A DNA stretch of 64,000 nucleotides from NCBI RefSeq assembly GCF_032854445.1, contig NC_088296.1:2503246-2567245 (forward strand). Direction: 5' to 3'. Shown one piece after another: positions 21,599 to 61,238 of this stretch. This DNA is from Liolophura sinensis. Lineage: Eukaryota > Mollusca > Polyplacophora > Chitonida > Chitonidae. Within the stretch, counting starts at the first letter, position 1. The number at the start of each line of letters is the position of its first letter. The position numbers and the translations under genes were made by a program. The notes under the pieces are model-generated. The model searched no databases, was not told where the DNA came from, and saw only the letters and a program-made list of their open reading frames with translations.

Positions 21599-22346
21599 TT
21601 ACTTTTTTATAACCGGTTCAAGACTAGAAAGTGGTAGAAGACATCTAATGACGTCATCAGATGGCGACGATGTGACGGAATGAGACATACTGCAGATTCG
21701 CTTGTGACCTTTCTTCCAAGCCTCCTTCTGGCATTTGCCGCTGCAGTACCACGCCCTGTGGCACTTGCCGCACGTTGGCAGTTTCTTGTCGCTCTCAGCT
21801 GGTGCGCCGCAGTTGGTGCACGCCTCCGGCCCGTCGCCTTCATACGTGCACCGGTCGCAGTTGCACCAGAAGTTGTATGCCCGATGTAGCCAAGCCCGGC
21901 GTTCCCGACGTGAAAGACGTGTGTCGATGTACGTCGTGAACAGCTCTTCGTCTTTCTTGAGCGGCTTCTTGGCTCTGACCTTGACTCCCACAGCGCCCTC
22001 TACCATAGCATCCATGATCTCCACGTTGTTGTCGCAGGAGTGATTGATACAGGCGTGCAGCGAGAACATCCCGGCGAACACAGCTTCCGGTTGACCATTG
22101 GTCAGCAGCCCCATGATGTAATTCCCCTTAGAGGTAGCTTTCACTTTGTCTACGAAGACTTTGAGAGGCGGTTCGGGATCAGAGAAGGCCTGGACGTTAC
22201 AGGTGGCCTGAAAGTAACGACCGTCAAACTCCCGCTGGGTGATGTCATAGGAGAGCCCGTCGCCGCAGTCGCGGAACACCTCAGCCATTATATGGTGCAT
22301 CTTTGGTATAACCTTAGCATTGCTGGAAGACCCGTAAGCGATGAAC
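21599..22346 (-). CDS. exon 3 of the TPR-MYND-SET-MYND gene
   Basis: Begins after acceptor TCTCTGACAG|G and ends at a TAA at 21601-21599. It encodes the SET core with NHSC, the post-SET cysteines and the C-terminal MYND finger. Candidate polyadenylation signals (AATAAA on the minus strand) lie at about 21171-21181, some 420 nt past the stop, in very AT-rich sequence. Confidence 0.92.
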
Positions 22347-25300
22347 CTGTCAGAGATCCACAACAGAGCATATGCTCAGTAAGTCATTTACACGCTTGAC
22401 TGGCGATGTATACGCTCTACTTATGTGTGAAAAGGTACATGTACTATAAAACGAAGAGTATACTTTTAAGGAAAATAGACACATATAGCCAAAAAATTTG
22501 AAAAAAGAAAAAAAAAACATTTTGAGTGCACACTTTATATTTCTTAATAATCCATCCATTTTATGCTCATTGTCCGCCAATGATCGGAAATGTTCGAAAG
22601 TGACTCGTCGATGACTCTAATGCCTCCAAATCGGGTTTTCATCCCAACAAAGTTGTTTTTGCAGTTATCAGTTAACGTAATTTCCGCTGGGACCTTCAAT
22701 AGTGAATCAAGTTTAAGGCCATTTTTACTCCTACGAAGAAAGCTGAGAAACTTATGTGAGCTTTTAATTGTTAGGCTATACATGTGTAGGCTATATCATA
22801 TATTATATACTGTATTCCATACTCCGAATGAAAAGTCAAACATTTCAATCATGTATCCTGTAAAACTGTTGCTTCATGTGACTGATGTGTAGAGCCTCTG
22901 AGGTGGATTCGGACTAGCCCCCTAATTATCAGTGGTCTGCCTTCTAGGCTGATATAAGTGAGATTCATGGGATTGTGTGCTTGCAGCCCGCAACCACTGG
23001 TTTGGGTGCGCCAATTAATGCAGACGTTTGTAAGGTTAGTGCCAAAGGACGAGGTTTTCTCGTACGTTTACCCAGTTTCAAAAAATAAACAGTTTTTATC
23101 ATTATTGCAAATGGTTTACCTTCTGAATGGAGACATCGCTTTTGACCAATGGTCGTTGGTAGGTCTGAGCAGGCCGTCCTCCTTGGCCTGCTGTTTGGCC
23201 TGAGATATAATGGATGCCCAAATACGCGCGAGGACCATAGGAGAGAACGAGGCGTTCCACACGCCCGACCAAGCGCCCATCGCCCCGCTGACGGCGCCTG
23301 TATACTGATCACACACCTCGTACAGTTTCTCAGCCGCTTGGTTTTTCGTCGGGCAGAGAATACTGTGATGTCGCACCCAGGCCTCTTTACGACATTTGTC
23401 ACTGCAGTACAGTTCATGGCAACAAAACTCGCACGGAAGCTTCTTTACTTCGGGCCAAAAACTCAGCACGGCTTTCTTCAACACGGGATCTCGCGCGATC
23501 TCACCGTCGGTGAAGTAGTCCTCTGGCCGTAGCAGGTTTTTGGCACAGTAACTGCATGCCGGAATGTTCAAAGAGTCTAAAGTTTGAGCTAGAACAAGAG
23601 GTGCATCCGCGAACACCATCTCTCCCTTGCGGATGACACCGGAACTCCGGATGGCCCGACCGTACTGCGTGAAATCCACCTTGATAGGGAAGCCATTGAT
23701 CAGTGGCCCATACAGCCTTTGCACACGAACTTGCTGAAACAAGATGGCGGCCTCCTCATCTTTTCCTGTGGACAGTTTTGAAGCTTTTCGTAACCAGGAT
23801 TCTGCGGTTACCGGAAATCCCAGCTCGCGCAGAATCTTCCCTGAAAGAACATTGGAAAACAAAAAGCGTTATCGTTTATCTACCTCAGACTGAACACAGA
23901 TATAAATTTGTTTATTCATATCATTCGAATTCTTTAGTATGAAGATAAGTAAGAAATAAAACACGTTCGATTGGAGCTCTGGTATCGTCCTGTGTGTACA
24001 GTACCGTCCTCATTATACAGTGTGACCTGTAGTGAAGCTGATTCCAAGAGCAAAACTGAGTGCTTGGGGTTTAACGTCGTACTTAACAATTTTTCAGTCA
24101 TATGTCGACGAAGGAATCCTTAGGGTGCATGTAATGTGCCTCCTTGTTGTAGGACGGATTTCCTGCCGCTCTTTTATCTAGTGCTGCTTCACTGAGATGT
24201 CTTACCGAAGGCAAATAAACCGCCCCGCCCCAGCCATTATACTGATACGGGTCAACCAATCGTTGCACTATTCTCTTCGTGCTGAACGCCAAGCGAGGAA
24301 GTTACAACTTCCTCTTTTAAGGTCTTAGGTGTGGCTCGACCCAGGATTGATCCTGGATCTACCGCTCCCGAAGCCGACGCTCTACCAACTGTGCTATCGG
24401 AGCCGGTTTTTTGAGCAAAAGGCTCCAAATCAAAAATACATGGCTTATGTGACTGAATTCATAATCAGGCCTATGATATACACAGCGAAAATTGGAAGGA
24501 AGCCAAATATAGCTGGAAATTATTTATTTATTAATTATATATATTCACTTACATATGACGGCGGTTGGAGGTAACTGGATTGGTCAGAGTGAACTACTGT
24601 TTTTTTCCTCGTACCTGACACAACGCGTTAATGCCGACAAAACCAGAGCTGAACTTGAACAAGCGACCTCACTACTCAAGGGCATGATAGTTACAGCGAG
24701 CGAAATCAGTGGGGATATACGTTAAAAATTTAACGCAGTTAAGCTTGTCAAACCAGCAAGACCTGGATTTGAACACACGACCTCAGAAGCCTAAGTTCAT
24801 TTAATTCCCACAGCGAGGGCGTTACTAGTATGAAGAAGAAAAGATGAATTCGAATAACATACACAATGATGTAGAGCTTAATTCAGCCAGATATATGCAA
24901 AAGCAGCGAGGACACTGTGGTAACGGGATATCTCATCAAGCGTAAGTCTTACCATCGGACCACTTTACATTTTATATGCCTCAATCAAGGACTTATTCTC
25001 TGTGCATGCGACGATACATAAACTGTGCAGACTACGGTAAGATCCCCTGTTACTCGGTGGCTGACGAATGAACGAGCACATTTACATATTTTCACCCTGT
25101 ACCACGTGCGAGGTTTCTATTCTCGGAATGACGCTGTTAACAGTGACTCCCGAAATAAACATCATACAAGATCTCTGGCTGTGACGTCATCTAGGCGCGT
25201 AATAGCGCGTCAGTCTTCAGTATCTTGTGCAACAGACCAGTATCCGTGCAGATCGCAAACCGACCACCCGTCGGGATCTCTACAGCTACACGTGCAACCC

Positions 25301-28300
25301 AGACAGACTCTACAGTATATACACAAAGAAATTGTAGATATCTCTGGTGTCCATCGCAAGAGTCTAATTTAAAGCGCGTGAGATGACGTACAGGCTCGGG
25401 TGAGTTAGACACAAGCGAATCTGTTTGGTTGACCAGCCAAGGGACTGTTGAATTGCTTAAATTATTTAATCTCGGTGGTTAAGAATTTTCACTAGAATGC
25501 GGCAATGGCGAGGTTTACTCGACAAGGAAACCAGAGTGACCGGTGTAAATCACCCCCCTTTCTCATCTATAACTTCTTGACATAAAGTCGAGGCAAAACC
25601 AGCAAGGAGGAGATTCGATCCTGTGACCCAACTGTTCAATTGTCGATCAGTTGGGTCAACATCTGTACACTGATTCCAGTAAAGTAGTTGCTTATTTAAT
25701 CTTATTTTAGAAGATGACAAAACATGCACCGGCAAACCGTCCTGCAACAATAATCCAGCCGTTGAAAATTTTTAATTGAGATGTGTCGTATGCAAACATC
25801 AGGCAGTCCAATGACAATAGTACCTTATTGCTGATGGCACACCAAAAACAAAGAGAGAACCAACAGAAAAGTTCTCAACGAAACGTCCCGTCGCAAGACA
25901 CTTTCGACACCCATCATGTACCCTACTGGAACTTAACGGAAGTCCGAATTCAAGGCATCCCGGATGCTGATTTGACTTTCTGGATTTAAAATGTAGGCCA
26001 CACGGGCGGGTTAGCGTTAAAAAGTCGATCCCATTACCATGTTTCTACAGCAGGTTACCCATCTCATTACCACACTACGCGTGAAATGTTTGTACAGCAG
26101 ATTTCCCATCTCATTACCACACTACGCGTGAAATGTTTGTACAGCAGATTTCCCATCTTATTACCACACTACGCGTGAAATGTTTGTACAGCAGATTTCC
26201 CATCTCATTACCACCCTACGCGTGAAATGTTTGTACAGCAGATTTCCCATCTCATTACCACACTATGCATGCAATGTTTCTACAGCAGGTTTCCATCTCA
26301 TTACCACACTACGCGTGAAATGTTTGTACAGCAGATTTCCAATCTCATTACCACACTACGCGTGAAATGTTTGTACAGCAGATTTCCCATCTCATTACCA
26401 CACTACGCGTGAAATGTTTGTACAGCAGATTTCCCATCTTATTACCACACTACGCGTGAAATGTTTGTACAGCAGATTTCCCATCTCATTACCACACTAC
26501 GCGTGAAATGTTTGTACAGCAGATTTCCCATCTCATTACCACACTATGCATGCAATGTTTCTACAGCAGGTTTCCATCTCATTACCACACTACGCGTGAA
26601 ATGTTTGTACAGCAGATTTCCCATCTCATTACCACACTACGCGTGAAATGTTTGTACAGCAGATTTCCCATCTCATTACCACACTACGCGTGAAATGTTT
26701 GTACAGCAGGTTTCCCATCTCATTACCACACTACGCGTGAAATGTTTGTACAGCAGATTTCCCATCTCATTACCACACTATGCATGTAATGTTTCTACAG
26801 CAGGTTTCCCATCTCATTTCCACATTTTGCGTGCAATGTTTCCCATCTCATTACCACACTATGCGTGCGATGTGTCTACAGCGGGTTTCCCATCTCATTA
26901 CCGCAGTGTGCGTGCAGGGTTTCTACAGAGGGATTCCCATCGCATCACCACACTATACGCGCAATGCATTCATAGGGGCTTTTCGATCTGATTATTACAT
27001 TATGTGTCTTCTATAAAATAACTTCGACTTTCCCAACTTCTTTTTGAAGCATAGTATGTGAACAATGTTTGAACTGAAGAGTTTACTGTCTCATTATTAC
27101 AGTACGCTCGATACGTTTAACCTTCTTACATTTCACCTGTGAATATTTCGTTATTAAGGTGAGTGTGCTATTTGTATACTGAAGTTTTCATTGTTACAGT
27201 TAGAGTTATTTTTCTCCTGAAGTTCTCCTAAAACTAGAGTATGTGTGCAATGTTATTACAGTCAGTGTGTAGTGTTTCTCCTGAAGTTTTCATTATTACA
27301 ACAAGGGAATCGTGTTTCTGTTGAAGTTTTCGCTATAACATTAAGTGCATAATCTTTCTCCTGAAGTTTTCGTTATTACAGTAGATAATATTTCTCAAGA
27401 TATTTTCATTACGACGGCAAGTGTGTAATATGTTTCCTAAGTTTTAGTTATTACAGTAAGTGTGTAATGTTTCTCCTGAAGTTTTAAATATTACAGAAAG
27501 TGTGTCCTGTTTCTGTTGTTTCAAGTCAAGTTTTCATTACTATAGTAAATGTTTTATGTTTCTCCTGAAGGTTTCATTTCTACAGAAATTGTTTTATGTT
27601 TCCTCTAAAGTTGTCCTTATTTCAATAAGTGTGTAATATTTCTGCTGAAATTTTCATTATTGCAGTAAATGATTTATGTTTCTTCTATGGTTTTCTTTAT
27701 TTCAAAGAGTGCGCAGCGTAATGACCCAGGAACCTCTCACCAATGCGGTCGCTGTGAGTTCAAGTCCCCTTTATGCTGGCTTCCTCTCAGGCCGTACATG
27801 GGAAGGTCTGCCAGCAACCTGCGGATGGACGTGGATTTTTCCCGGGCTCTGCCCGGTTTCCTGCCACCATAATGCTGGCCGCCGTCGCATAAGGGAAATG
27901 TTCTTGAGTACGGAGTAAAATACCAATCAAATAAATAAATAAAATAAATCAACATGTGTGTAATGTTTTTGCTAAAGTTTTCATTAATACAGTAGGTTTG
28001 GAATGTTTCTTTTGAAGTTTTCATTATTACAGTATTTTTTTATGATTATCTGAAGGTTTTCCTTATTACAAGGTTTGTTATGTTTTTCCTAAAGTTTTCG
28101 TTTTTCAGCAAATGAATAATGTGACACCAGATGTATTCGTTATTGCAGTAAGTTTGTGTAGTTTCTCCTGCACTTTCTTATTTCTATTGTAATTGTGCGA
28201 TGTTTCTCCTAAGGTATTGTTATTACAGTAAGTGCGTTATGTTTCCCGTGAAGTTTTCACTACAGTGAGTATGCAGTGTATCTCCTAAAGACTTCGCTAC

Positions 28301-29136
28301 AGTATTTGTCTGCATATTTGTTTCTTACCTCCCATCTTCCATACCTCAGCGGTTCGCATCCCTTGTACCACAGCATTACAGCATAGCAACGCTTCCTTAT
28401 ACTGTCCTCTACCAAACAGAATCTCCGCCTTCTCTTTCCATAGTTCGGGGTTGTTAGGGTCGACTTGTAGCGCTGTACCGTAACACACCAACGCTGCCTC
28501 TGTGTCCCCGTCCTTCCTCAGCTTCCGAGCCCATGCCCCGGCCTCACCCCTATTTTCCAAACACGGTGTCTCATCCGTTAAAGCAGGTACGTCGTTCAGA
28601 CGCTTCTTGTCTATGATTTCAGCCTCAAGAAGTAGCAGCTCGTCATCCCCTGGGTAGGGGTCCTGGGAACACAACTTTAAGGCGTTGTAATCGTCCTCCA
28701 CTTCCTTACTCCCTGTCTCTCGGGCTGCTAAGATGTCAGTCTGCATTTTCTTCAGATCAGTCACAATCGTCTTGTGGTTCGGATCAATGTCCAGCCCGCG
28801 TCTGTAGGCGTTCAGGGCGTCTTCAAATCTCCCGAGCTTCACGAGGATTTTGCCACACCAGATGTAACCGTCAATACAGACCGGATGTTGCTGGGTGACG
28901 CGGTAAGCCTCTGTCAGAGCCACAGCGTACTTCTTCTCCCCGTACAGCTTAGCTACGCTCAGCAGCTCGAAATTCACTTCACATCCCGCGTCTTCGTTAT
29001 GCTTCCCCGGTATCTCCGCGATACCTCTACCCGACGGGTCAGGTTCCCAGCCCTCTGCCGCCTCATCTTCACCCTGGATGTTCTGTTTGCCACCACCACC
29101 AGACGTGCCGTTAACATTACTGTGTGTGTCAGCCAT
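21599..29136 (-). CDS. TPR-MYND-SET-MYND protein (SMYD-type lysine methyltransferase family)
   Basis: Three coding exons, 29136-28329, 23840-23120 and 22346-21599, join in frame (intron phases 1 and 2, GT/AG borders) into 758 residues. Residues about 52-125 and 195-292 are TPR-like helices. G330-R331 begins the SET N-part. C365, C368, C406, C409, C415, C419, H428 and C432 form an MYND-like finger stretched by a roughly 37-residue insert between its first two cysteine pairs, as in SMYD5. N611-H-S-C614 and T648-Y-I-D651 are SET signatures, and C671-x-C-x2-C676 is the post-SET cysteine cluster. A second, canonical MYND finger (C686, C689, C702, C705, C711, C715, H724, C728) sits near the C-terminus, where SMYD proteins usually have helical repeats. 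SET motifs look intact, so S-adenosylmethionine-dependent protein lysine methylation is likely; the substrate is unknown. The start at 29136 has a strong context (ACCATGG); an in-frame ATG at 29166 is weaker. The subfamily is uncertain (SMYD4/SMYD5/SmydA-like). Confidence 0.9.
23120..23840 (-). CDS. exon 2 of the TPR-MYND-SET-MYND gene
   Basis: Begins after acceptor TTCTTTCAG|GG and ends at donor TCAGAAG|GTAAAC, phase 2. It encodes the last TPR helix, the SET N-part and the first MYND-like finger (residues 270-510). Confidence 0.92.
24060..24415 (-). repeat. SINE family 2, full-length minus copy
   Basis: On the minus strand it begins with a tRNA-like head (GGCTCCGATAGCACAGTTGG, A-box region; AGGATCAATCCTGGGTCGAG, B-box region). 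The tail contains ATGACTGAAAAATTGTTAAG and ACGACGTTAAACCCCAAGCA. The head folds only poorly as a tRNA (weak anticodon stem), so it is a tRNA-derived SINE and not a functional tRNA gene. It lies in intron 1 of the methyltransferase gene, same strand. Confidence 0.75.
26035..27000. repeat. 47-bp minisatellite with about 281-bp higher-order repeat
   Basis: About 20 units of 47 bp (core ACTACGCGTGAAATGTTTGT then ACAGCAGATTTCCCATCTCA). A six-unit block of about 281 bp recurs nearly exactly (26180 and 26461). Units on the right edge (26780-27000) are progressively diverged. It lies in intron 1 of the methyltransferase gene. Plus-strand ORFs here are repeat readings. Confidence 0.95.
27040..28300. 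repeat. diverged ~40-bp minisatellite, interrupted by a SINE
   Basis: Roughly 25-30 diverged units with the core TTTCTCCTGAAGTTTTCATT, ATTACAGTAAGTGTGTAATG, running to about 30 bp from exon 1's donor. A family 1 SINE interrupts it at 27709-27945. It is much older than the adjacent 47-bp array. Confidence 0.85.
27709..27945 (+). repeat. SINE family 1, plus copy
   Basis: GTGCGCAGCGTAATGACCC, GTCGCTGTGAGTTCAAGTCC, CTGCGGATGGACGTGG, TTGAGTACGGAGTAAAATAC and an AAATAAATAAATAAA tail. The extreme 5' head is missing. It is inserted in the ~40-bp minisatellite. Confidence 0.9.
28329..29136 (-). CDS. exon 1 of the TPR-MYND-SET-MYND gene
   Basis: Encodes residues 1-269: a Gly-rich acidic N-terminus, then TPR helices (for example LGRFEDALNAYRRGLDIDPN and GQYKEALLCCNAVV). 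It ends at donor GGGAG|GTAAGAAA, phase 1. Confidence 0.92.
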
Positions 29137-29185
29137 GGTACTCGAGTCAGGCAGGTAGCATCTCATGTACAACACTCCCTCTACA

Positions 29186-29248
29186 CTATACTAAACCATC
29201 ACTGTGTAACATCACCGCTTTCCTTTGACGCCCGACTGACTCCGTCAT
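29186..29248 (-). promoter_or_regulatory. possible uORF in the leader of the TPR-MYND-SET-MYND gene
   Basis: An ATG at 29248 opens a 20-codon frame ending TAG at 29186, 50 nt before the main ATG and in a different frame. A possible leader acceptor (GTTTCACAG) lies just upstream at about 29266-29258. Whether the transcript includes this segment is not known. Confidence 0.4.
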
Positions 29249-36833: not shown

Positions 36834-37339
36834 ATAACATGGACAGAATGCTCATATCCAAATGTTTCATTGGGATTTAAAAATTATCTATTTTCTTTTA
36901 TTTTATTGGGATTTTTCGATGAGTTCAAGACTATTCCTTTTATATGACACGGGTTTTTTTTATTGATGGAGGAAATTGGGGTCAGGAAAATTACCGATCA
37001 AGGTAAGGTACCTGAGTAACCCCCCAAAGTATATAAAGCAACGGCCCGACTATCGAGGGTTGCGAGTGCAAGAATCGAACCTACGACTACTGGCCAAAAG
37101 TTGGTACATTTCCGGCTGAAGTCGCTCCACAAACGTAGGTATAGGCACCACTTCGGACATTCCTATACACTGAGTCTAGCGAAAGAGAACGTTCATCACT
37201 TGACAAACAAAACAAGCTGATTCAGATAATTGGAATCAAAGATGACTTTCGAAGTCGAAGAGAGGCCACAAGAGGTATCTGCTTAACAATGATTTGATCA
37301 GTACATCCGTGTACCATGCATCACAACATCTGTCAGTTA

Positions 37340-38150
37340 CTTACAGCACTGTGTCCTCTGTGGCGTAAGTTACTTACAGCACTGTCCTCCATTTCCGTAA
37401 GCTAGTTACAGCAGTGTCCTCCATTCAAGTAAGCCATTTATAGCACTGTGTCCTCTATTTCCATCAGTTACAGCAGTGTCCCCCATTCCGTAAGTTACTT
37501 ACAGCACTGTGTCCATTTCCGCATGCTACTTACAGCGTTGTGCCCCTATTTCTGTAAGCTACTTACAGCACTGTGTCCTCCTTACCCGTAAGTTACTTTC
37601 AGCACTGTGTCCTACACTCCCGTCAGTTACTCACACCACTATGTCCCCCATTCCCGTAAGTTACTTACAGCACTGTGTCCTTCATTTCCGCACGCTACTT
37701 ACAGCGTTGTGCCCCTATTTCTGTAAGCTACTTACACCACTGCGTCCTCCTTACCCGTAAGTTACTTTCAGCACTGTGTCCTACACTCCCGTCAGTTACT
37801 CACACCACTATGTCCCCCATTCCCGTAAGTTACTTACAGCACTGTGTCCTTCATTTCCGCACGCTACTTACAGCGTTGTGCCCCTATTTCTGTAAGCTAC
37901 TTACACCACTGCGTCCTCCTTACCCGTAAGTTACTTTCAGCACTGTGTCCTACACTCCCGTCAGTTACTCACACCACTATGTCCCCCATTCCCGTAAGTT
38001 ACTTACAGCACTGTGTCCTTCATTTCCGCACGCTACTTACAGCGTTGTGCCCCTATTTCTGTAAGCTACTTACACCACTGCGTCCTCCTTACCCGTAAGT
38101 TACTTTCAACACTGTGTCCTCCATTCCCGTCAGTTACTCACACCAATACT
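37340..38150. repeat. ~28-bp minisatellite with 169-bp higher-order repeat
   Basis: Basic units of about 28 bp with CGTAAGTTACTTACAGCACT and GTGTCC. From 37500, six basic units form a 169-bp block repeated almost exactly (37675, 37844, 38013). Diverged single units lie at the left edge. The four overlapping ORFs are the same frame repeated. Confidence 0.93.
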
Positions 38151-45164: not shown

Positions 45165-45274
45165 TCAGCTGTCCTTTGTTTGACTCTCCTGGTTCTCTCT
45201 TCTGCTGAGATTCTTCAGTTCTGTTTCTTGTATCTTGTCTTGTCTCCCCTTGACCAATCTGCCACCAGCAAAGC
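45165..45274 (-). CDS. STX17: STX17 exon 7, C-terminal tail
   Basis: Begins after acceptor TTTGACTTTGCAG with GFAGGRLVKGRQDKIQ and ends with TGA at 45167-45165. It completes the second membrane segment and a charged cytosolic tail. No clear polyadenylation signal was located. Confidence 0.93.
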
Positions 45275-48200: not shown

Positions 48201-51200
48201 TACATGTATGTTACATGAGAAGCAGCTGTATAAATGTCTGTCTGTGTGTTGGTCTGTCTGCTCCCCGGTCACATTTCTAACATCCTATCTCGTAACTTGG
48301 GGCATAATCTCTTAACGCGGAGTGTGAGTACAACACAACACTGGCTTATGTACTTGTACGTCACAACTTTTTTAAATTTGTGTTTGTTACAATTAGGCCA
48401 TGCAGAAGATACCACAAATGACATCAACTTCCCAAAACACCCCCCACCCCCCACCCCAACTTGACCCCAGAAGCAAACTGCTTTCTTACCAACAATGCCG
48501 CCACCAACAGCTGCCAAACTTCCCACTTTCAGCCCAGCCACAAGCCCCACTGGACCCCCGATGACACCCCCGATGAGAGCCCCTGTGACCGGAAACATTG
48601 CAGCCTTCAACTTTGATGCCTGAGATGTAAAAGCAAAAAGACCACAATTAGACACCTATGCTACAAGTAAGTTTAATTAAATGAGTAAACCTTATGCTCG
48701 ATTAGAAAAAATCAAACTGCCTTTCTGGACATCATCTCAGTATTTAATGGTCTTTCATCTATATATCTATATATATGAAGATACATATATTCAATGTTTG
48801 TGTTTTCTTTGCCTTTAACAGTCTCTGCAGATCTGAGTTATATTAAAGCTGTCCATGGCTGTAATCTAAATGTCATGGTTACCGCTGAACTTATTTCATT
48901 CTGTATAAAAGTCACATGAGAAATGGTTTGAGGATATTCAGCTTTAAGGGACGCATGGAATGCTGGGTATTGTATCTTCATACGTAACTTAGGATGTGAA
49001 AGTATAATACAGCTGCACAGCCTTTTTCTCGGGGCGTAAAAATGGCTTTAAACTACAATTGTCCCGAGGCCCCAGCAGTCAGTCCTAAAATTAAGTAGCT
49101 TGCTGTAGTGATGTTAAGGGTAATAACTGTCAAAACAACTTTGCTGGCCAGTGGGGTGCTAAACTAGTCTCGCGTTCCCTGTATGCTTATCGATGGCGTC
49201 ATTTCTATGGCGACATTTACACCCACTGACACAAGTAATGCATAAAATAGAGAGGTTTGTAGGAAATATAAAATATGCCTCAAAAATGAACTTCTTTTGT
49301 GATTTTTTTTTTCCTTTCTTCAGTTTCCTTCAAATCATACTCTTTATTTTACAGTATCTTTTCATGTACCCGTTAAGATGGCAGGTCAGCCAACAGACAG
49401 AGAGGCAGAGCACTTACCTTTGACAAGCTATACACTCCCTGCTGCACATTTTCGTGAGCTTTGTCTATGTTTTCCTCAATTGTGTCAATCTTTTCCTGCT
49501 GGTCCTGAAACATTTTAATTCCCATATATCACTCTGCTCAGTACTCAATTTTGAGTCGGTCAGCCAAATGGGGCAGAGAATGCAGAAAACTATGACACCT
49601 CAACAGATGTATCTCAGAAAATAGTGGAGAATGTGACGCTAGTGTTGATACACTTCTTTACCTTTTCCATGGCTGTGTAATGTCACACTATGATCACAGT
49701 GGCTGATAACGGCCATCTAGACCATAAAGAGAATCGCAAATTTTCATCTCTGCAAACATGTGGAACATGCGAATGGGGTGCATCCTTGTTAAGGTTTAAG
49801 GGTGAAGGAACTCAAGACGGCCACTGGTACGCAACACGTACAGGTTTAAGGGTGAAGGAAATCGGAGCGCCACTGGTACGCACCACGTACAGGTTTAGGG
49901 GTGAAGGAACTCGGAGCACCACTGGTACGTACCACATACAGGTTTATGGGTGAAGAAACTCAAGACGGCCACTGGTACGCAACACGTACAGGTTTAAGGG
50001 TTAAGGAACTCAAGACCGCCACGGGTACGTACCACATCCAGGTTTAAGGGTGAAGGAACTCAGAGCGCCACTGGTACGCAACACATACAGGTTTAAGGGT
50101 TAAGGAACTCAAGACCGCCACGGGTACGTACCACGTCCAGGTTTATGGGTGAAGGAACTCAAGAGCGCCACTGGTACGCACCACGTACAGGTATTGGGGT
50201 GAAGGAACTCGGAGCGCCACTGGTACGTACCACATACAGGTTTATGGGTGAAGAAACTCAAGAGCGCCGCTGATACGCAACACGTACAGGTTTAAGGGTA
50301 AAGGAACTCGGAGCGCCACTGGTACGCAACACGTACAGGTTTAAGGGTTAAGGAACTCAAGACCGCCACGGCTACGTACCACATCCAGGTTTATGGGTGA
50401 AGGAACTCGGAGCGCCACTGGTACGTACCACGTACAGGTTTAAGGGTGATGGAACTCGGAGTGCCGCGGGTACGTACCATGTACAGGTTTATAGATGAAG
50501 GAACTCAAGAGCGCCACTGGTACGCAACACGTACAGGTTTGTGGGTGAAGGAACTCAAGAGCGCCACTGGTACGTACCACATACAGGTTTATGGGTGAAG
50601 AAACTCAGAGCGCCACTGGTACGCAACACGTACAGGTTTATGGGTGAAGGAACTCTAGCGCCACTGGTACGTACCACATACAGGTTTATGGGTGAAGAAA
50701 CTCAGAGTGCCACTGGTACACAACACGTACAGGTTTATGGGTGAAGGAACTCTAGCGCCACTGGTACGTACCACATACAGGTTTATGGGTGAAGAAACTC
50801 AGAGTGCCACTGGTACACAACACGTACAGGTTTATGGGTAAAGGAACTCGGAGTGCCACTGGTACGTACCACATACAGGTTTATGGGTGAAGAAACTCAG
50901 AGCGCCACTGGTACGTACCACATACAGGTTTATGGGTGAAGTAACTCGGAGAGCCACTGGTACGTACCACATACAGGTTTAAGGGTGAAGGAACTCTGAG
51001 CGCCACTAGTACGCAACGCGTACAGGTATTGGGGTGAAGGAACTCAAGAGTGATACAGGTACACACCAAGTACACTATCTGATTTGTCACGTTATTAACA
51101 ATTTTTCTCACAAGAGACATAAGGATTTGCATGCTGTGTTGATGAAAGACAAGTGATACAGGTACCTTGAAGTACTTAATTTTCACGTGGAACTAATTTT

Positions 51201-54200
51201 CGCGGATTTTGCAGTCAGTAATTTACCGTGAAAAATAATTTCTATGTAAAAACTTCCAATACTGAATCATAAAGGCTTATTTCAGGAAGTAGTGGTCTAG
51301 TAATAATGAAGGGAAATCTTTGCCGGGCTGGCAGAAATAAGAAAGCTTTTGAGAAGTTTGGATAAGAAAGCTCAGTGATTCAGCTAAAGGGAAGAAACAT
51401 TAGGCTTGAAATATATGCATACAAACTCTGGGGATAGGGCTGGGTGGGCATGAAACAAAGTGGGAGTTCATTGTTGGTTTCCAGTGAATGTTGCTCTGAG
51501 ACACGCCATCCCATTGGCTGTGTCTCTCCTGTAAGCCAATGAGTGAGCTGTTCACAGCACAATGGCTGTTTGAAAGCTTCGGCAATGCTATCAGTTTTAG
51601 ATCGGCTACACAGGATGTTTGAAACGGAAAACAATCCAAAACTAATCGTGTTGCTTGAGTGCGTTAATCAAGAATTAATGACTGGTGTTGAAATACTGGT
51701 TGCTGATTAAAATTACTCATCAAAGGTGTGAATTCTAGAGACAACTCTCTGAATTCTGCTCACGGTAGGTTCTCAGGTAATCTCACATATTTATTAAAAA
51801 ATACCTCATGGTTTTAATCTCTAATGCAGGATTAGCGACATCGCAGGAAATGGGAAATGGGAAAGGGTTAAAGCCACCCTTGATAATACCTGTTTGACAA
51901 ACTTGTGTAATTTGGGCCATATCATAACTAAGAAAATTAAACAATTTTAAGATTGTTACCTTGATTAAATTAATAAAAATTAATTCCCATAAACCCATTC
52001 TTGAAGTTTATCAGCGAAAATAAATTCCAGTGAATAATACAAAGTTTAAAGTATTCAACGAAGAGCACCATTTATTGTCCCAAATGCCACCAGAATTAAG
52101 GAATGACTTAACTATGGCACACCTTGTGTAGTAGTCGTCCTCAGTCGTGCAACCTAAGACTGAGCCATTACCTTCCCGTAAGATGATAATGATGAAGATG
52201 ATATTACTGAGAATGATTTTGTTAGTAAGGTTAATAATGACGACAGTGGAGGTAATGATGCTAGAGATGATACAGACAAAGATAATATTACTGAAGATAA
52301 TGCTGCTTTTATTGCATGATGATCATGATGATATGGATGAAGATGATCTTAGTGATGGAGATGATGCCAGCAATACTGCAAATGCAGATGGAGATGATGC
52401 CAGTGATACTGCAAATGCAGATGGAGATGATGCCAGCGATACTGCAAATGCAGATGGAGATGATGCCAGCGATAATGCAAATGCAGATGGAGATGATGCC
52501 AGCGATAATGCAAATGCAAACGGAAATGATGCCAGCAATACTGCAAATGCAGAGGGAGATGATGCCAGCGATAATACAAATGCAGATGGAGGTGATGCCA
52601 GCGATAAAGCCAATGCAGATGGAGTATGATGTTAAACCCCTAACACTCAATCACTCACTCAAATGCAGATGGACATAATGCCAGTGATAATACAAATGTA
52701 GACAGAGATGGATGAAGCCAGTGATAATGCAAATGTAGATAGAGATGATGAAAGAACATGATGATTATACATGATACAGATGAAGATAATGTTAGGGATG
52801 GAGACGGCTGCTATCACCCACTCCTCTCCGGCCGTAAGTGGGAAGGTTTCAGCAACCTACGGATGGTCGTGGGTTTCCCCTGGGCTGTGCCTGGTTTTCC
52901 ACCCACCATAATGCTGGCCACTGTCGTATAAGTGAAATATTCTTGAGTACATCGTAAAACACCAATCAAATAAATAAATAAATAAATGCTATCACCCACC
53001 ATAGTATGTTATTATAGAACAACAATGAAACAGATAAAGAAGTGTATCAACACTAGCATCATACTCTTGACTATTTTGTGAGATGCAGCTGATGAGGTGT
53101 TATAGTTTTCTGCATCCTCTGAACTCCTTAGTTGATGATAATGATGATGTTAGGGATGGAGATGACGCCAGTGATGACAATCACAAAGACAATGTAGATG
53201 GTGATGATGATGATGACGATGACGATGATGATGATGCTGCTGATGAAGACAATGACACTCTATGGAATCAGCCTACCTGTATCATGGTAGAGAAGTCATG
53301 GAATAGGGCATTCAGTTCAATCAGGCTCTGCAATGTAAACACAAAACACCTCGTCACCACAGTCACGCGCTGTGCAATAATATGTAGCAATAATACTACA
53401 TGGCAAATGATATCATTTTCAAAATAATATAATATTATTTCATGAATATTAAAGGTCATACGATCATGTAGCTCTTTCCTTTTGCACTATATACCAACTG
53501 ATCATTAAAGGCAGGGATCAGAAGACAGAATAAGATGCTGTTTCACTAGCCCCAAATGATACTTTACACCTTCAGTGAATGGGACATTGGTTTTATCATT
53601 TCTGGACACATTTAGCCACTACACCTTCACTACATTTGTCACATTTACCCTTAATACTATTCGTAAGTTTGCTGAAACAAATATCCCCATGATAATGATG
53701 TTACCTGTCCAAGGGAGATAACTAGGCTAAAATTTAGGTCAAACCAAGCTATTGTCCCTTGGCATGCCACACACTGATCCCACTTGGCATGCGTACATTT
53801 TGCGTTTTTTTTTGCACATACATTTGTGAAATTTATTTTTCAAAAAATAACACATCTTTACATGTATATGCTGTAAGACTGCTATGAGCATTCACAGAGC
53901 TGGCTAAGCCTTATCAACATATTCATCTGGACATATCACAGATCTGACACGACTGGCAATAAGCAAGAAAAACTGTCTCAAAAATTCTCCTCTATGAATT
54001 TTCCACCTAGGATTTTGCTAAGAAAAGAGTAGCTAACTACTACGGCATACATATACAAGTAGTAATATAGTAGGCTGCCATTTTGGTCCTTCTATACCTT
54101 CAGAACCCTGCATTTCTATTTCAAGAAATCTGATTGCAGTAGCTTACATGTGCAAAAGATATAATTAATTGCTTCTCATCAAAGTTAATGCTTTAGAATT

Positions 54201-57200
54201 CTTTCCTGTAGACTAATATCACCCTCTCCATAGAAGATATGAAGTGAGTGACTCAAAAACAAACTCAAGATCTGACCTAAAATCTTCATGTAAGTACTTC
54301 ATAAGTTTAAACAATGTCATTGGTTTTATACTTCGTAATTATTGTAGACAGCATAATCTTTGAGAGAAATTTAACATTCCTTTGTGGTCACTGTGTTGTC
54401 TGGGATGACTTAGGTGTGTACTTACCTCTCTCAGGTGGTCCCAGGACTCTGCAGAGTCTGTGTTGTCTGGGATGACTTAGGTGTGTACTTACCTCTCTCA
54501 GGTGTTCCCAGGACTCAGCAGCCTCTGTGTTGTCTGGGAAGAATTAGGTGTGTACTTACCTCTCTCAGGTGTTCCCAGGACTCTGCAGCCTCTGTGTTGT
54601 CTCGGATGAATTAGGTGTGTACTTACCTCTCTCAGGTGTTCCCAGGACTCAGCAGCCTCTGTGTTGTCTGGGATGAATTAGGTGTGTACTTACCTCTCTC
54701 AGGTGTTCCCAGGACTCAGCAGCCTCTGTGTTGTCTGGGATGACTTAGGTGTGTACTTACCTCTCTCAGGTGTTCCCAGGACTCAGCAGCCTCTGTGTTG
54801 TCTCGGATGAATTAGGTGTGTACTTACCTCTCTCAGGTGTTCCCAGGACTCAGCAACCTCTGTGTTGTCTGGGATGACTTAGGTGTGTACTTATCTCTCT
54901 CAGGTGTTCCCAGGACTTCGCAGCCTCAGTGTTGTCTGGGATGACTTAGGTGTGTATTTACCTCTCTCAGGTGTTCCCAGGACTCTGCAGAGTCTGTGTT
55001 GTCTGGGATGAATTAGGTGTGTACTTACCTCTCTCAGGTGTTCCCAGGACTCAGCAGCCTCTGTGTTGTCTGGGATGAATTAGGTGTGTACTTACCTCTC
55101 TCAGGTGTTCCCAGGACTCAGCAGCCTCTGTGTTGTCTGGGATGAATTAGGTGTGTACTTACCTCTCTCAGGTGTTCCCAGGACTCTGCAGAGTCTGTGT
55201 TGTCTGGGATGAATTAGGTGTGTACTTACCTCTCTCAGGTGTTCCCAGGACTCAGCAGCCTCTGTGTTGTCTGGGATGAATTAGGTGTGTACTTACCTCT
55301 CTCAGGTGTTCCCAGGACTCTGCAGCCTCTGTGTTGTCTGGGATGACTTAGGTGTGTACTTACCTCTCTCAGGTGTTCCCAGGACTCAGCAGCCTCTGTG
55401 TTGTCTGGGATGAATTAGGTGTGTACTTACCTCTCTCAGGTGTTCCCAGGACTCAGCAACCTCTGTGTTGTCTGGGATGACTTAGGTGTGTACTTATCTC
55501 TCTCAGGTGTTCCCAGGACTTCGCAGCCTCAGTGTTGTCTGGGATGACTTAGGTGTGTATTTACCTCTCTCAGGTGTTCCCAGGACTCTGCAGAGTCTGT
55601 GTTGTCTGGGATGAATTAGGTGTGTACTTACCTCTCTCAGGTGTTCCCAGGACTCAGCAGCCTCTGTGTTGTCTGGGATGAATTAGGTGTGTACTTACCT
55701 CTCTCAGGTGTTCCCAGGACTCAGCAGCCTCTGTGTTGTCTGGGATGAATTAGGTGTGTACTTACCTCTCTCAGGTGTTCCCAGGACTCTGCAGAGTCTG
55801 TGTTGTCTGGGATGACTTAGGTGTGTATTTACCTCTCTCAGGTGTTTCCAGGACTTCGCAGCCTCAGTGTTGTCTGGGATGAATTAGGTGTGTACTTACC
55901 TCTCTCAGGTGTTCCCAGGACTCAGCAACCTCTGTGTTGTCTGGGATGACTTAGGTGTGTATTTACCTCTCTCAGGTGTTCCCAGGACTCTGCAGAGTCT
56001 GTGTTGTCTAGGATGACTTAGGTGTGTACTTACCTCTCTCAGGTGTTCCCAGGACTCTGCAGCCTCTGTGTTGTCTGGGATGACTTAGGCGTGTATTTAC
56101 CTCTCTCAGGTGGTCCCAGGACTCTGCAGAGTCTGTGTTGTCTGGGATGAATTAGGTGTGTACTTATCTCTCTCAGGTGTTCCCAGGACTTCGCAGTCTC
56201 TGTGTTGTCTGGGATGACTAAGGTGTGTACTTACCTCTCTCAGGTGTTCCCAGGACTCTGCAGCCTCTGTGTTGTCTGGGATGACTTAGGTGTGTACTTA
56301 CCTCTCTCAGGTGTTCCCAGGACTCAGCAGCCTCTGTGTTGTCTGGGATGACTTAGGTGTGTATTTACCTCTCTCAGGTGTTCCCAGGACTCTGCAGCCT
56401 CTGTGTTGTCTGGGATGATTTAGGTGTGTACTTACCTCTCTCAGGTGTTCCCAGGACTCTGCAGCCTCTGTGTTGTCTGGGATGACTTAGGTGTGTATTT
56501 ACCTCTCTCAGGTGTTCCCAGGACTCTGCAGCCTCTGTGTTGTCTGGGATGATTTAGGTGTGTACTTACCTCTCTCAGGTGTTCCCAGGACTCTGCAGCC
56601 TCTGTGTTGTCTGGGATGACTTAGGTGTGTACTTACCTCTCTCAGGTGTTTCCAGGACTTTGCAGCCTCTGTGTTGTCTGGGATGACTTAGGTGTGTATT
56701 TACCTCTCTCAGGTGTTCCCAGGACTCTGCAGAGTGTGTTGTTTGGGATGAATTAGGTGTGTACTTATCTCTCTCAGGTGTTCCCAGGACTTTGCAGCCT
56801 CTGTGTTGTCTGGGATGACTTAGGTGTGTATTTACCTCTCTCAGGTGGTCCCAGGACTCTGCAGAGTCTGTGTTGTCTGGGATGAATTAGGTGTGTACTT
56901 ATCTCTCTCAGGTGTTCCCAGGACTTCGCAGCCTCTGTGTTGTCTGGGATGACTTAGGTGTGTACTTACCTCTCTCAGGTGTTCCCAGGACTCTGCAGCC
57001 TCTGTGTTGTCTGGGATGAATTAGGTGTGTACTTACCTCTCTCAGGTGTTCCCAGGACTCAGCAGCCTCTGTGTTGTCTGGGATGACTTAGGTGTGTATT
57101 TACCTCTCTCAGGTGTTCCCAGGACTCTGCAGCCTCTGTGTTGTCTGGGATGATTTAGGTGTGTACTTACCTCTCTCAGGTGTTCCCAGGACTCAGCAGC

Positions 57201-60200
57201 CTCTGTGTTGTCTGGGATGACTTAGGTGTGTATTTACCTCTCTCAGGTGTTCCCAGGACTCTGCAGCCTCTGTGTTGTCTGGGATGATTTAGGTGTGTAC
57301 TTACCTCTCTCAGGTGTTCCCAGGACTCTGCAGCCTCTGTGTTGTCTGGGATGACTTAGGTGTGTATTTACCTCTCTCAGGTGTTCCCAGGACTTTGCAG
57401 CCTCTGTGTTGTCTGGGATGGCTTAGGTGTGTATTTACCTCTCTCAGGTGTTCCCAGGACTCTGCAGAGTGTGTTGTCTGGGATGAATTAGGTGTGTACT
57501 TACCTCTCTCAGGTGTTCCCAGGACTTTGCAGCCTCTGTGTTGTCTGGGATGACTTAGGTGTGTATTTACCTCTCTCAGGTGTTTCCAGGGCTCTGCAGA
57601 GTCTGTGTTGTCTGGGATGACTTAGGTGTGTACTTACCTCTATCAGGTGTTCCCAGGACTTTGCAGCCTCTGTGTTGTCTGGAATGACTTAGGTGTGTAC
57701 TTACCTCCCTCAGGTGTTCCCAGGACTTTGCAGATCTGTGTTGTCTGGAATGACTTAGGTGTGTACTTATCTCTCTCAGGTGTTCCCAGGATTTTGCAGA
57801 TCTGTGTTGTCTGGGATGATTTAGGTGTGTACTTACCTCTCTCAGGTGTTCCCAGGACTCAGCAGCCTCTGTGTTGTCTGGGATGACATGTGTCTGCAGG
57901 GCTGAAGAGAGCTCTATATCCTCCATCCTCTCCCCCTCTCCTTGAGGTCCGTCGGCCACGTCACTTTCCACGTGCAGTATGGCAGGACCTACTAACAACA
58001 GGAATTGATTAACCTTTTAATGTATCTTGATTGGTCTTTTTATTTTGAACTCAAGAACATTTGGCGTTTTTAATGTGGCACTTATGTTTCTGGGTGGATG
58101 GAAACTGGCTCTACTACCACAATCGCATAACAAACTTTCTAGGAGCAAGACTCTTTCATCAGGCCTCCCTGATCAAAAGTTTCATAAGTTATGTATGAGG
58201 ACTGGGCTAGTGTCCGCACATTTAGAGAGGTCATGGAATAGGGCACTGCGTTCATTCAGGCTCTGACCCAGTAGTAAGGCGTGCCACCGACAACTGCTGA
58301 CACAAAAGGCGCAAGATCTATCCCAGCCATAGCCAAGCAATTACTAGTAACAGGTTCCTTCCAAACCCCACCCCATTTCTTATTGATTTAAGGGCCTTGG
58401 TGACAATAATGGTTGGTAGCAATCATGTGGCCGTCAACGCAGTCTTTACAATTGATAATACTTAATCATTTGTCTTCCACCAGTACAGCATTTTTGTGTG
58501 CAAGTTTGTTGATCCCATGCGAATGAATGAATGAATGAATGAATGAATGAATGAATGACAACGGCCTTTCAGCAAGATTTCAGTCACACTGTGATAATAC
58601 ATCCAATGCGGAGAAGCCTGTCAATGGCTTACTACAGGTTGGTGATTCACACTGGGCATTTAGGTACCCTTCACCCATTAAACTACTATCACATCAGTGA
58701 AAAACTACAATCAAATACATGCAAATAACTACTACTGAATGTTTTCACTACCTGACCCAAGTAACATCAGCTCACCAGACCTGTCCTGTCGACTGTGCAT
58801 GTCTGACCCACCACAGCTCTCCATGAACTCAACAACACCCTCCACAGCCAGCTTCTTCACCGCTAGCACTCTAGAGTCAAACTTTTCCCAGTCCTCTTCC
58901 TGAATCTGGTTCCTCGCTCTCTCCATCTCCCTCACTGTGGCGTTGATTTGCTGAACAGTGCGTGAGGCATTCACCTGCTCTGTGTGGAGACTGCTCCAGT
59001 CTTCATTGTTCAGAAACTAAACAAACAAGCAACTATTTATTATGTATTTACCATGAAAATTTGCCTGATATAGTGCATTTTTGGAGGCAAAAAATAAAGT
59101 ATATACCCTAAATGACCGAAAAATTTTTTTAGAGGCAAATACATATATCAAAATACTATGTTAGGTGCTGAACCTTACAACTTTCCCGTAGAATATCAAC
59201 CATTGTTCCAAGCAAAGGTCAAAACACCTCTCTACAATCAACAGGGGGGGCCTCCGTGGCTCAGTCGGTTAGCGCGCTAGCACAGCGCAATGACCCTGGA
59301 GTCTCTCGCCAATGCGGTCACTGTGAGTTCAAGTCCAGCTCATGCTGGCTTCCTCTCTGGTCGTACATGGGAAGGTCTGCCAGCAACCTGCGGATGGTCG
59401 TGGGTTTCTCCCGGGCTCTGCCCGGTTTCCTCCCACCATAATGCTGGCCGCCGTCGTATAAGTGAAATATTCTTGAGTACGGCGTAAAACACCAATCAAA
59501 TACATAAATAACTCTACAATCAACAGAACTCTCAGAATCAGGAAAAATGGGAAAGTTTGTCATGGACGAAATTTTTGGTGATTTAAGGTAAATGCAACTG
59601 TAAATGTGTATCAATACTTTCTGTGTTCAACAATTTTTGTTAACAGGATATTGATCTATGGTGCTCATAGCTCCCAGAGAAACCTTACAAACATCTGTCT
59701 AAGATGAACACCACTCTCAGTATCAGGCAGAATGAAAACACAGGTAACTGACAGTTGGGGGCCTCCATGGCTCAGTTGGTTAGTGCGCTAGCGCAGAATA
59801 ATGCCCCAGGAGTTTCTCACCAATGCTGTCGCTGTGAGTTCCAGTCCAGCTCATCCTGGCTTCCTCTCCGGCCGTAAGTGGGAAAGTCTGCCACCAACCT
59901 GTGGATGGTCGTGGGTTTCACTCGAGCCCTGCCCAGTTTCCACCCCTCATAATGCTGGCCACCGTCGTATAAGGGAAATATTCTTGAGTATGGCATAAAA
60001 CACCAATCAAAACATATAAATAAAATGAATAAACAGACAGTCAATACTTCCGGTCAAATACAGTATTTATTTATTAATTTGAATGACAGTTGATGTCATA
60101 CAATGAAATACATTTCTCTTATACAATGAGTATAAGACTTTGGAGTAAAAGGAGCCAGGCTAACCCAAGACAACAAAACCAGGTGCTTTATAAAGAAATA

Positions 60201-61238
60201 AATACAACATTGTGAAATAAATAAAGCCTAGATTAAAATTTTGTCAGAAAAGAACACAGGCTTCTCACTTCGATTCATGGATATAAACGGGTAGAGGAAT
60301 TAGCCCACCCCAAGTAACCCACTGCCCTGTACCGCGGGCACCAGATGTTTTACCTGACGAACCTTCTGCAGGGGTCAATGCCCCATGCCCCGGGCACCAG
60401 ACATGTTACCTGACAAACCTTCTGCTGGGGTGAAAAAGTTTGATCATTCACAGGATTTTCAGAGATCAAAAAAAAAAAAAAAAAAACTGATGACCTCAAA
60501 TGGAGAACAGAGGTACATACTCACAAGATGACATTAGAGAAATATTCGTAACTTCAGACACATAAATGACTGTTTGATGTAATTTGTCCACTTCCATGAA
60601 GATTGTTTTGCAGTGTCTATAACTCGAATTTAATACATTTTACACATTAGTTCCAAATGAATAACGTCAATTTTTCTTAAGGCAGATCTTAAAATATCGA
60701 ACATTTTGACCTTGTCCTTACCAATGTCTAACCTACAGTGCTGAGTGCCAGGAGAAAACCACTGGCCTGTGGTAAGTTACTGACAAATCTTTTCACAAGT
60801 GATGAATATGATATGCACACTATATTGGTGGAAGTGAAGAAATTCTCAGTAAATATTAGACTGTGCAAACTGCCAGACGTGCATAGTCAACAGCTTACAT
60901 GCTGTCACATGCTGTCATCTTGGCCTGAAAAGCAGGGATAGCCTTCAGTCACAAAAGTAGAAAGCAAATGTAAAGCCAAGCAAACAAAGAAAGAAATGGA
61001 CTGAACCTTTACCTGAGGAGTGCACAATTTAACACGACTTTTAACGTTTCTCTAGATGGTACCGGTACCTGTAGCTTACCTTTAGTATCTTCACCTGGTG
61101 TTTTTTTAAGCGGTCAATATTTGTCTCTAGGACCATAACAAACTTGCTGATACTGGGCTCCACGCGTTTGTACGGGAATTTTTGATAGGCATCGGATTCA
61201 CTGAGAGAGCGCCGGCGATCACAGTCAAATGACGCCAT
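45165..61238 (-). CDS. STX17: syntaxin-17, autophagosomal Qa-SNARE
   Basis: Seven exons join in phase into 317 residues (human STX17 about 302). Syntaxin-17 is recruited to closed autophagosomes and, with SNAP29 and VAMP8 in animals studied, drives fusion with lysosomes. Seen here: an N-terminal helical domain (residues about 25-125, with NASRTVQQINATVREME); W187-E-H-L190, matching the LC3-interacting motif known in human STX17; a SNARE motif from about residue 193 with the zero-layer glutamine expected at Q211 (DQQEKIDTIEENID); and the signature tandem glycine-zipper membrane hairpin, residues about 244-288, with K269 between its halves. The tail is basic and polar. The start at 61238 has good context (GTCATGG) and an in-frame TGA 12 nt upstream. 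The second human LIR position (FSLL) is here F204-S-T-M207, which is weak. Intron 3 is mostly a minisatellite made from the exon 3 end. Confidence 0.95.
45735..46985. repeat. 43-bp satellite in STX17 intron 6, with 514-bp higher-order repeat
   Basis: About 29 units with CACTGTGAGATCACACAGCA and TGTCAGTGATCACAGACCCA. A 12-unit, 514-bp block is repeated almost exactly: the variant CGTGCCAATG and its shortened neighbour recur at 45977 and 46491. Each unit holds two GATC sites and a GTGATCAC palindrome. Confidence 0.95.
47286..47450 (-). repeat. SINE family 1, minus copy, head missing
   Basis: TTGTTTGATTAGTGTTTTAC, GCCGTACACAAGAATATTTT, GCCAGCATTATGGTG and GACCGTCCACAGGTTGCC; it ends before the B box. 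It lies in STX17 intron 6, same strand as the gene. Confidence 0.85.
47766..48364. repeat. 150-bp tandem repeat, four copies, STX17 intron 6
   Basis: Copies start at 47766, 47916, 48067 and 48217 with GAGAAGCAGCTGTATAAATG. Each includes CACATTTCTAACATCCTATC and CACTGGCTTATGTAC. Copies differ by only a few bases. Confidence 0.95.
48490..48619 (-). CDS. STX17: STX17 exon 6, membrane hairpin
   Basis: 43 codons plus one base; acceptor CATCTCAG and donor GTTG|GTAAGAAA. Encodes ASKLKAAMFPVTGALIGG and the rest of the glycine-zipper hairpin that marks syntaxin-17. Confidence 0.96.
49418..49504 (-). CDS. STX17: STX17 exon 5, SNARE core
   Basis: 29 codons beginning DQQEKIDTIEENIDKAHE; acceptor AAATGTTTCAG and donor AAAG|GTAAGTG, phase 0. 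Contains the expected zero-layer glutamine. Confidence 0.95.
49785..51060. repeat. ~49-bp minisatellite in STX17 intron 4
   Basis: About 26 units with ACAGGTTTATGGGTGAAGGA, ACTCGGAGCGCCACTGG and the palindrome GGTACGTACC. Its right edge continues in diverged form. ORFs in both strands are repeat readings. Confidence 0.95.
52330..52760. repeat. 33-bp tandem repeat in STX17 intron 4
   Basis: About eight good units plus diverged ones with GATGATGCCAGCGATACTGC and AAATGCAGATGGA. The plus strand reads as an 11-residue acidic repeat (DDASDTANADG) because the unit is a multiple of three. It lies antisense inside an STX17 intron and is flanked by GAT-rich simple sequence, so I do not call a gene. 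Related GATGATGATG simple sequence recurs at 53135-53245. Confidence 0.88.
52822..52990 (+). repeat. SINE family 1, plus copy, 5' truncated
   Basis: CTCTCCGGCCGTAAGTGGGA, GGATGGTCGTGGGTTTCCCC, GTATAAGTGAAATATTCTTG and an AAATAAATAAATAAATAAAT tail. Confidence 0.88.
53277..53327 (-). CDS. STX17: STX17 exon 4 (51 nt)
   Basis: A 17-codon exon, SLIELNALFHDFSTMIQ, between acceptor TTTACATTGCAG and donor CAG|GTAGGC; phase 0 at both ends. It starts the SNARE motif. Being a multiple of three, its skipping would keep frame. A decayed relative lies at 58212-58262. Confidence 0.93.
54388..57895 (-). repeat. 67-bp minisatellite made of the STX17 exon 3 end plus its 5' splice site
   Basis: About 52 tandem units. 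Read on the gene strand, each has GACAACACAGAGGCTGC, TGAGTCCTGGGAACACCTGA, GAGAG|GTAAGTACACACC and TAATTCATCCCA. The first unit is the genuine end of exon 3 and its donor at 57837/57836; the rest fill about three quarters of intron 3. Donors vary: most are GTAAGT, a number are GTAAAT, and several are ATAAGT, in which the GT is lost. Most units are 67 bp (not a multiple of three), but copies 2 and 3 are 66 bp, so reading through copies 1 to 3 stays in frame. Unit types are mixed in blocks, as expected from repeated unequal exchange. Confidence 0.96.
57837..57988 (-). CDS. STX17: STX17 exon 3, with WEHL LIR motif at its end
   Basis: Residues 142-192; acceptor GTTGTTAGTAG|GTCC and donor GAGAGAG|GTAAGT, phase 0. 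The last 15 codons (PDNTEAAESWEHLRE) and the donor constitute the first copy of the 67-bp intronic minisatellite. Confidence 0.94.
58212..58262 (-). pseudogene. decayed duplicate of STX17 exon 4
   Basis: On the gene strand, after an acceptor-like TACTGGGTCAG, this reads AGCCTGAATGAACGCAGTGC and GCCCTATTCCATGACC. It matches exon 4 at about 34 of its first 39 bases and keeps the peptide ALFHD. The 3' third has diverged and there is no GT donor at the expected place. It sits in intron 2, upstream of exon 3. Confidence 0.75.
58520..58560. repeat. (GAAT)n microsatellite
   Basis: About nine perfect GAAT tetranucleotides in STX17 intron 2. Confidence 0.97.
58752..59016 (-). CDS. STX17: STX17 exon 2
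   Basis: Residues 54-141 plus one base; acceptor TTTGTTTAG|TTTCTG and donor GGGTCAG|GTAGTG, phase 1. It carries NASRTVQQ, a strong syntaxin-17 match. Confidence 0.94.
59230..59526 (+). repeat. SINE family 1, full-length, with 15-bp target-site duplication
   Basis: The reference copy of the family. CTCTACAATCAACAG flanks it exactly on both sides (59230-59244 and 59512-59526), the mark of target-primed insertion. The head has GCCTCCGTGGCTCAGTCGGT (A box) and GTGAGTTCAAGTCCAGCTC (B box); the body has CTGCGGATGGTCGTGGG and CCCGGGCTCTGCCCGG; the tail has TTGAGTACGGCGTAAAACAC and CAATCAAATACATAAATA. It is in STX17 intron 1, antisense to the gene. Confidence 0.95.
59757..60030 (+). repeat. SINE family 1, full-length plus copy
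   Basis: GCCTCCATGGCTCAGTTGGT, GTGAGTTCCAGTCCAGCTCA, TTGAGTATGGCATAAAACAC, then an A/T-rich tail. A second antisense insertion in STX17 intron 1, about 230 bp from the previous one and slightly more diverged. Confidence 0.92.
61080..61238 (-). CDS. STX17: STX17 exon 1
   Basis: Residues 1-53, ending HQVKILK at donor AAG|GTAAGC, phase 0. It begins the N-terminal helical domain (VEPSISKFV, then DRLKKHQ). Confidence 0.94.

Follow-up and report, generated by a model that had tools for sequence, protein, structure and literature searches.

A minisatellite in a chiton STX17 gene repeats the end of coding exon 3 together with its splice donor

The window, which is the whole stretch of 64,000 nt analysed here, lies on contig NC_088296.1 of the Liolophura sinensis assembly GCF_032854445.1 (positions 2,503,246 to 2,567,245 of the forward strand); this chiton assembly was first attributed to L. 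japonica, a name since corrected to L. sinensis (PMC12441733). Its minus strand carries the gene for syntaxin-17 (STX17), in which coding exon 3 ends inside a minisatellite, so that most of intron 3 consists of further copies of the exon end and its splice donor. The features are given below in gene order, with donors of the array numbered from exon 3 and a slash marking the splice junction.

61080..61238, minus strand: STX17 coding exon 1 (from the ATG), donor GTAAGC; part of a 309-aa protein
58776..59016, minus strand: STX17 coding exon 2, with GTGAGC as its donor; a second donor in the same frame (GTAGTG), 24 nt downstream, would place the exon end at 58752
57837..57988, minus strand: STX17 coding exon 3, 152 nt; the last 51 nt (57887-57837) are array unit 1, and the donor GAG/GTAAGTAC starts at 57836
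53328..57836, minus strand: intron 3, 4509 nt
54391..57887, minus strand: minisatellite with a 67-bp unit (51 nt of exon end and 16 nt of intron) in 52 copies that bear a donor, plus a partial copy of 19 nt
57771..57836, minus strand: step from donor 1 to donor 2, 66 bp, in frame; donor 2 is broken (ATAAGT)
57705..57770, minus strand: step from donor 2 to donor 3, 66 bp, in frame; an intact GTAAGT donor lies at 57704
53277..53327, minus strand: STX17 coding exon 4 (SLIELNALFHDFSTMIQ), which follows directly on exon 3 in the deposited protein
49418..49504, minus strand: STX17 coding exon 5 (SNARE motif)
48490..48619, minus strand: STX17 coding exon 6 (glycine-rich membrane hairpin)
45165..45274, minus strand: STX17 coding exon 7, with the stop

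Spliced together, the seven exons encode a 309-aa protein identical to the NCBI Liolophura sinensis entry 'syntaxin-17-like isoform X2' (P0001), and the deposited model therefore uses donor 1. The protein is homologous to Syntaxin-17 over its whole length. Among the 91 matches listed, the next named one is syntaxin-17-like of Ptychodera flava (45% identity over 100% of the query), and apart from the window's own protein identity is at most 50%, a value reached by two matches (P0019 and P0089) that span 38% of the query. A sequence search finds the Qa-SNARE motif, with top PDB matches 7bv6_B and 4wy4_B, both of them Syntaxin-17 (E 9.6e-14 and 1.3e-10); the Pfam SNARE match (E 2e-4) lies under the curated cut-off, at 21.8 versus 26.8 bits. 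Use of the second in-frame exon 2 donor (58752-58776, minus strand) would yield a 317-aa form, which may be the source of NCBI isoform X1.

Tandem Repeats Finder (TRF) gives the array at 54391-57887 (minus strand) a 67-bp period, 52.3 copies, 93% matches and a score of 6049, the top score among its 50 rows. It is thus a minisatellite, made of head-to-tail tandem units within the size range of about 10-100 bp. An earlier sequence-only reading of this DNA had proposed a minisatellite of about 52 copies of 67 bp at the border of exon 3 of STX17; the copy number and period, the gene, the exon and the position of the array within the gene are all borne out, the proposed coordinates being right within 8 bases and the array making up 76% of intron 3. 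That reading was also correct in placing an exon end, a donor and some intron in each unit, but it took the exon part to encode WEHLRE only and the intron part to be about 20 nt. The unit instead comprises the last 51 nt (17 codons) of coding exon 3, encoding the residues VIPDNTEAAESWEHLRE, followed by 16 nt of intron 3. In gene sense the consensus is GTC ATC CCA GAC AAC ACA GAG GCT GCA GAG TCC TGG GAA CAC CTG AGA GAG / GTAAGTACACACCTAA.

Since the first of the 52 copies with a donor position is exon 3's own end, there are 51 extra copies, all in intron 3, and the partial copy of 19 nt closes the array at its far end. The 51 spacings between donor positions measure 67 bp in 47 cases, 66 bp in 2 and 65 bp in 2, and both 66-bp spacings are the two steps directly after exon 3. 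On the window's minus strand the string AGGTAAGTA has 32 occurrences, which equals the number of GTAAGT copies in the array, and the plus strand has none; outside 54300-57990 the window has no ungapped match to the consensus unit of more than 35 of 67 bases.

Within the exon part, WEHL aligns to the conserved W-x-x-L of STX17, where W is found in 19, Y in 1 and L in all 22 of 22 aligned proteins, chosen by hand from the 91 to span animals. The aligned WETL of human STX17 is the LC3-interacting region (LIR) that binds Atg8 proteins. By this alignment WEHL is a LIR-like motif with putative Atg8 binding, and it is encoded at its place in 46 of the 52 copies. A paper that treats the STX17 hairpin and IRGM names, in the excerpt available, no LIR motif (PMC6464585), and the excerpt of PMC7615515 mentions STX17 just among its references.

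The donors of the array fall into GTAAGT (32/52), GTAAAT (14/52), in which the +5G is lost, and ATAAGT (6/52), in which the GT itself is lost, so that GT is kept in 46. The run of near-identical donors described earlier is therefore present in 32 copies, whereas 14 are weakened and 6 have no GT. The computed energy of the duplex with the U1 5′ end is -12.1 kcal/mol for GTAAGT, -6.9 for GTAAAT and -5.4 for ATAAGT; the other STX17 donors give -9.5 (exon 1), -8.1 (exon 2), -10.7 (exon 4), -11.7 (exon 5) and -8.0 kcal/mol (exon 6). Local folding predicts all GT-bearing copies to be paired, with an unpaired probability of at most 0.012 (donor 3 being highest and donor 1 at 0.001), while the six AT copies reach 0.088-0.202 and the median of the region is 0.003. 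The folds are no better than those of shuffled sequences (z -0.45; 0.66, -0.39 and -1.46). On the opposite strand, the consensus unit at 54391-57887 reads TACTTACCTCTCTCAG/GT, a string that resembles an acceptor and includes a branch-like motif; antisense genes were considered through the list of open reading frames.

To see what each choice would do to the protein, every one of the 52 donor positions was spliced in silico to exon 4 and the whole coding sequence was read. The frame stays intact for three, namely donor 1 with 309 aa, donor 3 with 353 aa and donor 2, which lacks its GT, with 331 aa. The remaining 49 lead to a frameshift or a stop, and strong use of later donors would consequently be costly. 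Donor 3 (GTAAGT, +132 nt, 44 extra aa) is the only other GT donor in the array with an open STX17 frame, and its product has three WEHL. What keeps it in frame is the 66-bp length of the first two spacings, with one base lost per unit and each step adding 22 codons and a WEHL. Retention of intron 3 would give a truncated product of 270 aa.

Variation among the units was examined for traces of selection. The mean minor-variant frequency is 0.064 over donor positions +1 to +6 and 0.043 in the exon part, and 6 of the 22 distinct exon-part changes are synonymous, against 33 of 153 possible. These two tests give no sign of constraint on the donors or codons of the array, and constraint as an account of them is unsupported. 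Units 11, 13, 24 and 48 have exactly the sequence of the exon copy; ongoing homogenisation of this copy was considered, and retained ancestry accounts equally well for the identity. Units 2-5, beside the exon, are more divergent than the rest (mean 5.1-6.6 differences versus 4.05 over all pairs), which gives the picture of a core close to the ancestor and a drifting edge near the exon. Identical unit pairs are commonest at lags 9, 2 and 11 (7, 6 and 6 pairs as raw counts), and we read these peaks as block duplications.

A minisatellite that supplies splice donors has a counterpart in human IFI6 (6-16, G1P3), where the array reportedly has a 12-nt unit in about 26 copies and begins near the end of exon 2. 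Two of its downstream units serve as splice donors, according to the available excerpt of PMC4526556, which cites Turri, Cuin and Porter 1995 (NAR 23:1854), a paper whose title states that the minisatellite supplies multiple donors; PMC2572611, again in excerpt, likewise cites Turri. The chiton array likewise starts at an exon end, unit 1 being the end of exon 3, and its units carry the donor consensus, with GT in 46 of 52. Given this precedent it belongs to the IFI6 kind and is not a new kind, a resemblance that lies in the sequence and leaves donor use aside. The two differ in that the chiton unit is 67 bp, includes 51 nt of coding exon and sits in an autophagy SNARE, and use of later donors is known for IFI6 only. 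Duplicated identical 5′ splice sites have also been used in minigene experiments, which share the tandem identical donors but are engineered and have few copies, in contrast to the 46 natural GT donors in the chiton. Earthworm metallothionein genes are a further lophotrochozoan case of an intron that houses arrays with monomers of minisatellite length, but no multiplied exon end or splice donor is described for them in the excerpted text (PMC12783039). Among the matches listed from open-licence literature, covered by titles and the starts of abstracts, no donor-multiplying minisatellite besides IFI6 was found, and none in STX17. The sequence-only reading had named no described case of an autophagy SNARE with a LIR-encoding exon border turned into a satellite; as a kind, the array has a precedent in IFI6, as known in excerpt.

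The surroundings are themselves rich in arrays. When TRF rows with a period of at least 25 and a score of at least 120 were picked by hand and merged, 19 arrays (periods 25-150 bp) were obtained, covering 12,352 bp or 19% of the window; six of them lie inside the STX17 span and make up 43% of its coding span. Random placement of these six covers a splice border in 98% of 20,000 draws. That an array overlaps a splice border is accordingly unremarkable, and what is unusual is that the border lies inside the repeated unit. The assembly paper, in the part available, assigns 0.08% to 'Other (simple repeat, microsatellite, RNA)' (PMC11068029); arrays of the type seen in the window may be classed elsewhere or missed in those figures.

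Taken together, the array is probably a near-neutral intronic minisatellite, and most pre-mRNAs are probably spliced at donor 1 by exon definition. A founding tandem duplication would have spanned the border of exon 3 and intron 3, from the 3′ end of the exon through intron nucleotide 16, an event that is unsurprising in a region so rich in arrays, and would have expanded to 52 copies by slippage or unequal exchange. The acceptor of exon 3 would then pair with the nearest of many near-identical donors; if exon definition joins this acceptor to the closest good donor, no special device is required for splicing at donor 1, and the array would be tolerated because the first donor is taken. The other donors would be intronic decoys removed along with intron 3, their sequences and the codons beside them decaying near neutrality, and any later donor would be little used, with mostly frameshifted, stop-bearing messages as the result.

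Several observations weigh against this account. The sequence from -3 to +8 is identical to that of the true donor in 31 of the 51 extra donors, which share its energy of -12.1 kcal/mol, so that position might be the only thing in favour of donor 1. The GTAAAT copies (-6.9) come near the exon 6 and exon 2 donors and may be usable. RNA structure as a feature setting donor 1 apart was rejected, as there is no significant folding. Variation is lower over all 16 nt of the intron part (0.026) than in the exon part, and the tests for constraint are weak because the variants of the array are few, with 2 of 6 donor sites variable, and shared through common descent. Furthermore, the steps that keep the frame sit only beside exon 3, and the label 'isoform X2' implies a further isoform.

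These last two points bear on an optional extension of exon 3, in which some messages would use donor 3 and make a 353-aa STX17 with three tandem WEHL and higher Atg8 avidity. This is unlikely, though it does draw on the fact that donors 1-3 are the only frame-open ones of the 52, with the intact GTAAGT at donor 3, and on the two 66-bp spacings, which as a common deletion counted as one event would fall beside the exon about 1 time in 50 (a post hoc estimate). It also draws on the name X2, which implies an isoform X1, but such an isoform could equally arise through the second in-frame donor of exon 2, 24 nt further on, whose computed U1 pairing is -8.2 versus -8.1 kcal/mol for the donor in use. 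Edge units of tandem arrays are often the most diverged, and this usual divergence could explain the 66-bp units as well. Moreover, when residues 160-245 of the 353-aa form were used to query a large protein collection, the 309-aa protein was the sole match among 114 candidates; this is weak evidence, the collection being clustered at 90% and consisting partly of gene models. Somewhat less probable is that the array tunes STX17 output, with decoy donors holding U1 or causing unproductive splicing or retention and copy number setting the level. The 46 retained GTs, the full computed U1 pairing in 32 copies and the truncated product expected from retention of intron 3 would suit such a role; however, the donors bear no sign of constraint, and the array has no A[AT]TAAA for U1 to guard, the single instance in intron 3 being at 53837, outside the array. 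A joint reading, in which donor 3 makes the three-LIR-like form while the other donors act as a copy-number-variable decoy field that sets the amount of productive message, is more doubtful still.

An inflation of the copy number by the assembly is very improbable. The units carry distinct variants, and their identical pairs, in raw counts, peak at the separate lags given above; in addition, the HiFi reads of the chiton assembly have a mean length of 8,347 bp at 14X, according to the excerpted assembly paper, and so exceed the 3.5-kb array (PMC11068029). Recursive splicing, in which the AG/GT of the array would serve as ratchet points and which the sequence-only reading had raised, is extremely improbable. 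Most units read GAGAG/GTAAGT or GAGAG/GTAAAT, so that AG does adjoin GT, but in the consensus unit pyrimidines make up 35% of the 20 nt preceding GT, a stretch that ends in GAGAGAG. The six true STX17 acceptors have 40-75%, with 60-75% in five and only 40% at exon 5, which makes this a modest test; a recursive splice site with a pyrimidine-rich acceptor was on this measure rejected, and the suggestion is unsupported.

Elsewhere in the window, a 34-bp minisatellite at 37335-38147 has GTAAGTTACTTACAG in the consensus around its junction, a short inverted repeat with donor-like and acceptor-like strings. Open frames with SET and MYND-finger matches (SMYD-like) lie at 21599-23868 on the minus strand, and an open frame with tetratricopeptide-repeat matches at 28297-29190, also on the minus strand. 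Scans of the window for tRNA and Rfam families found nothing.

The locus amounts to a natural experiment on donor choice, in which 32 donors with the same sequence from -3 to +8 and 14 weakened ones stand in a row after one acceptor. To make the normal protein the cell has to select one of dozens of almost identical cut sites, and an intact product results from donors 1 and 3 alone. RNA-seq from five L. sinensis tissues (BioProject PRJNA973839) exists, as stated in the excerpted assembly paper (PMC11068029), and could reveal whether position alone decides that choice. If later donors are used, the chiton would have an autophagy SNARE with a varying number of Atg8-binding motifs; if they are unused, the array illustrates the extent of change that a conserved gene can bear at the border of an exon, and is a caution for annotators that exon ends can lie within minisatellites.

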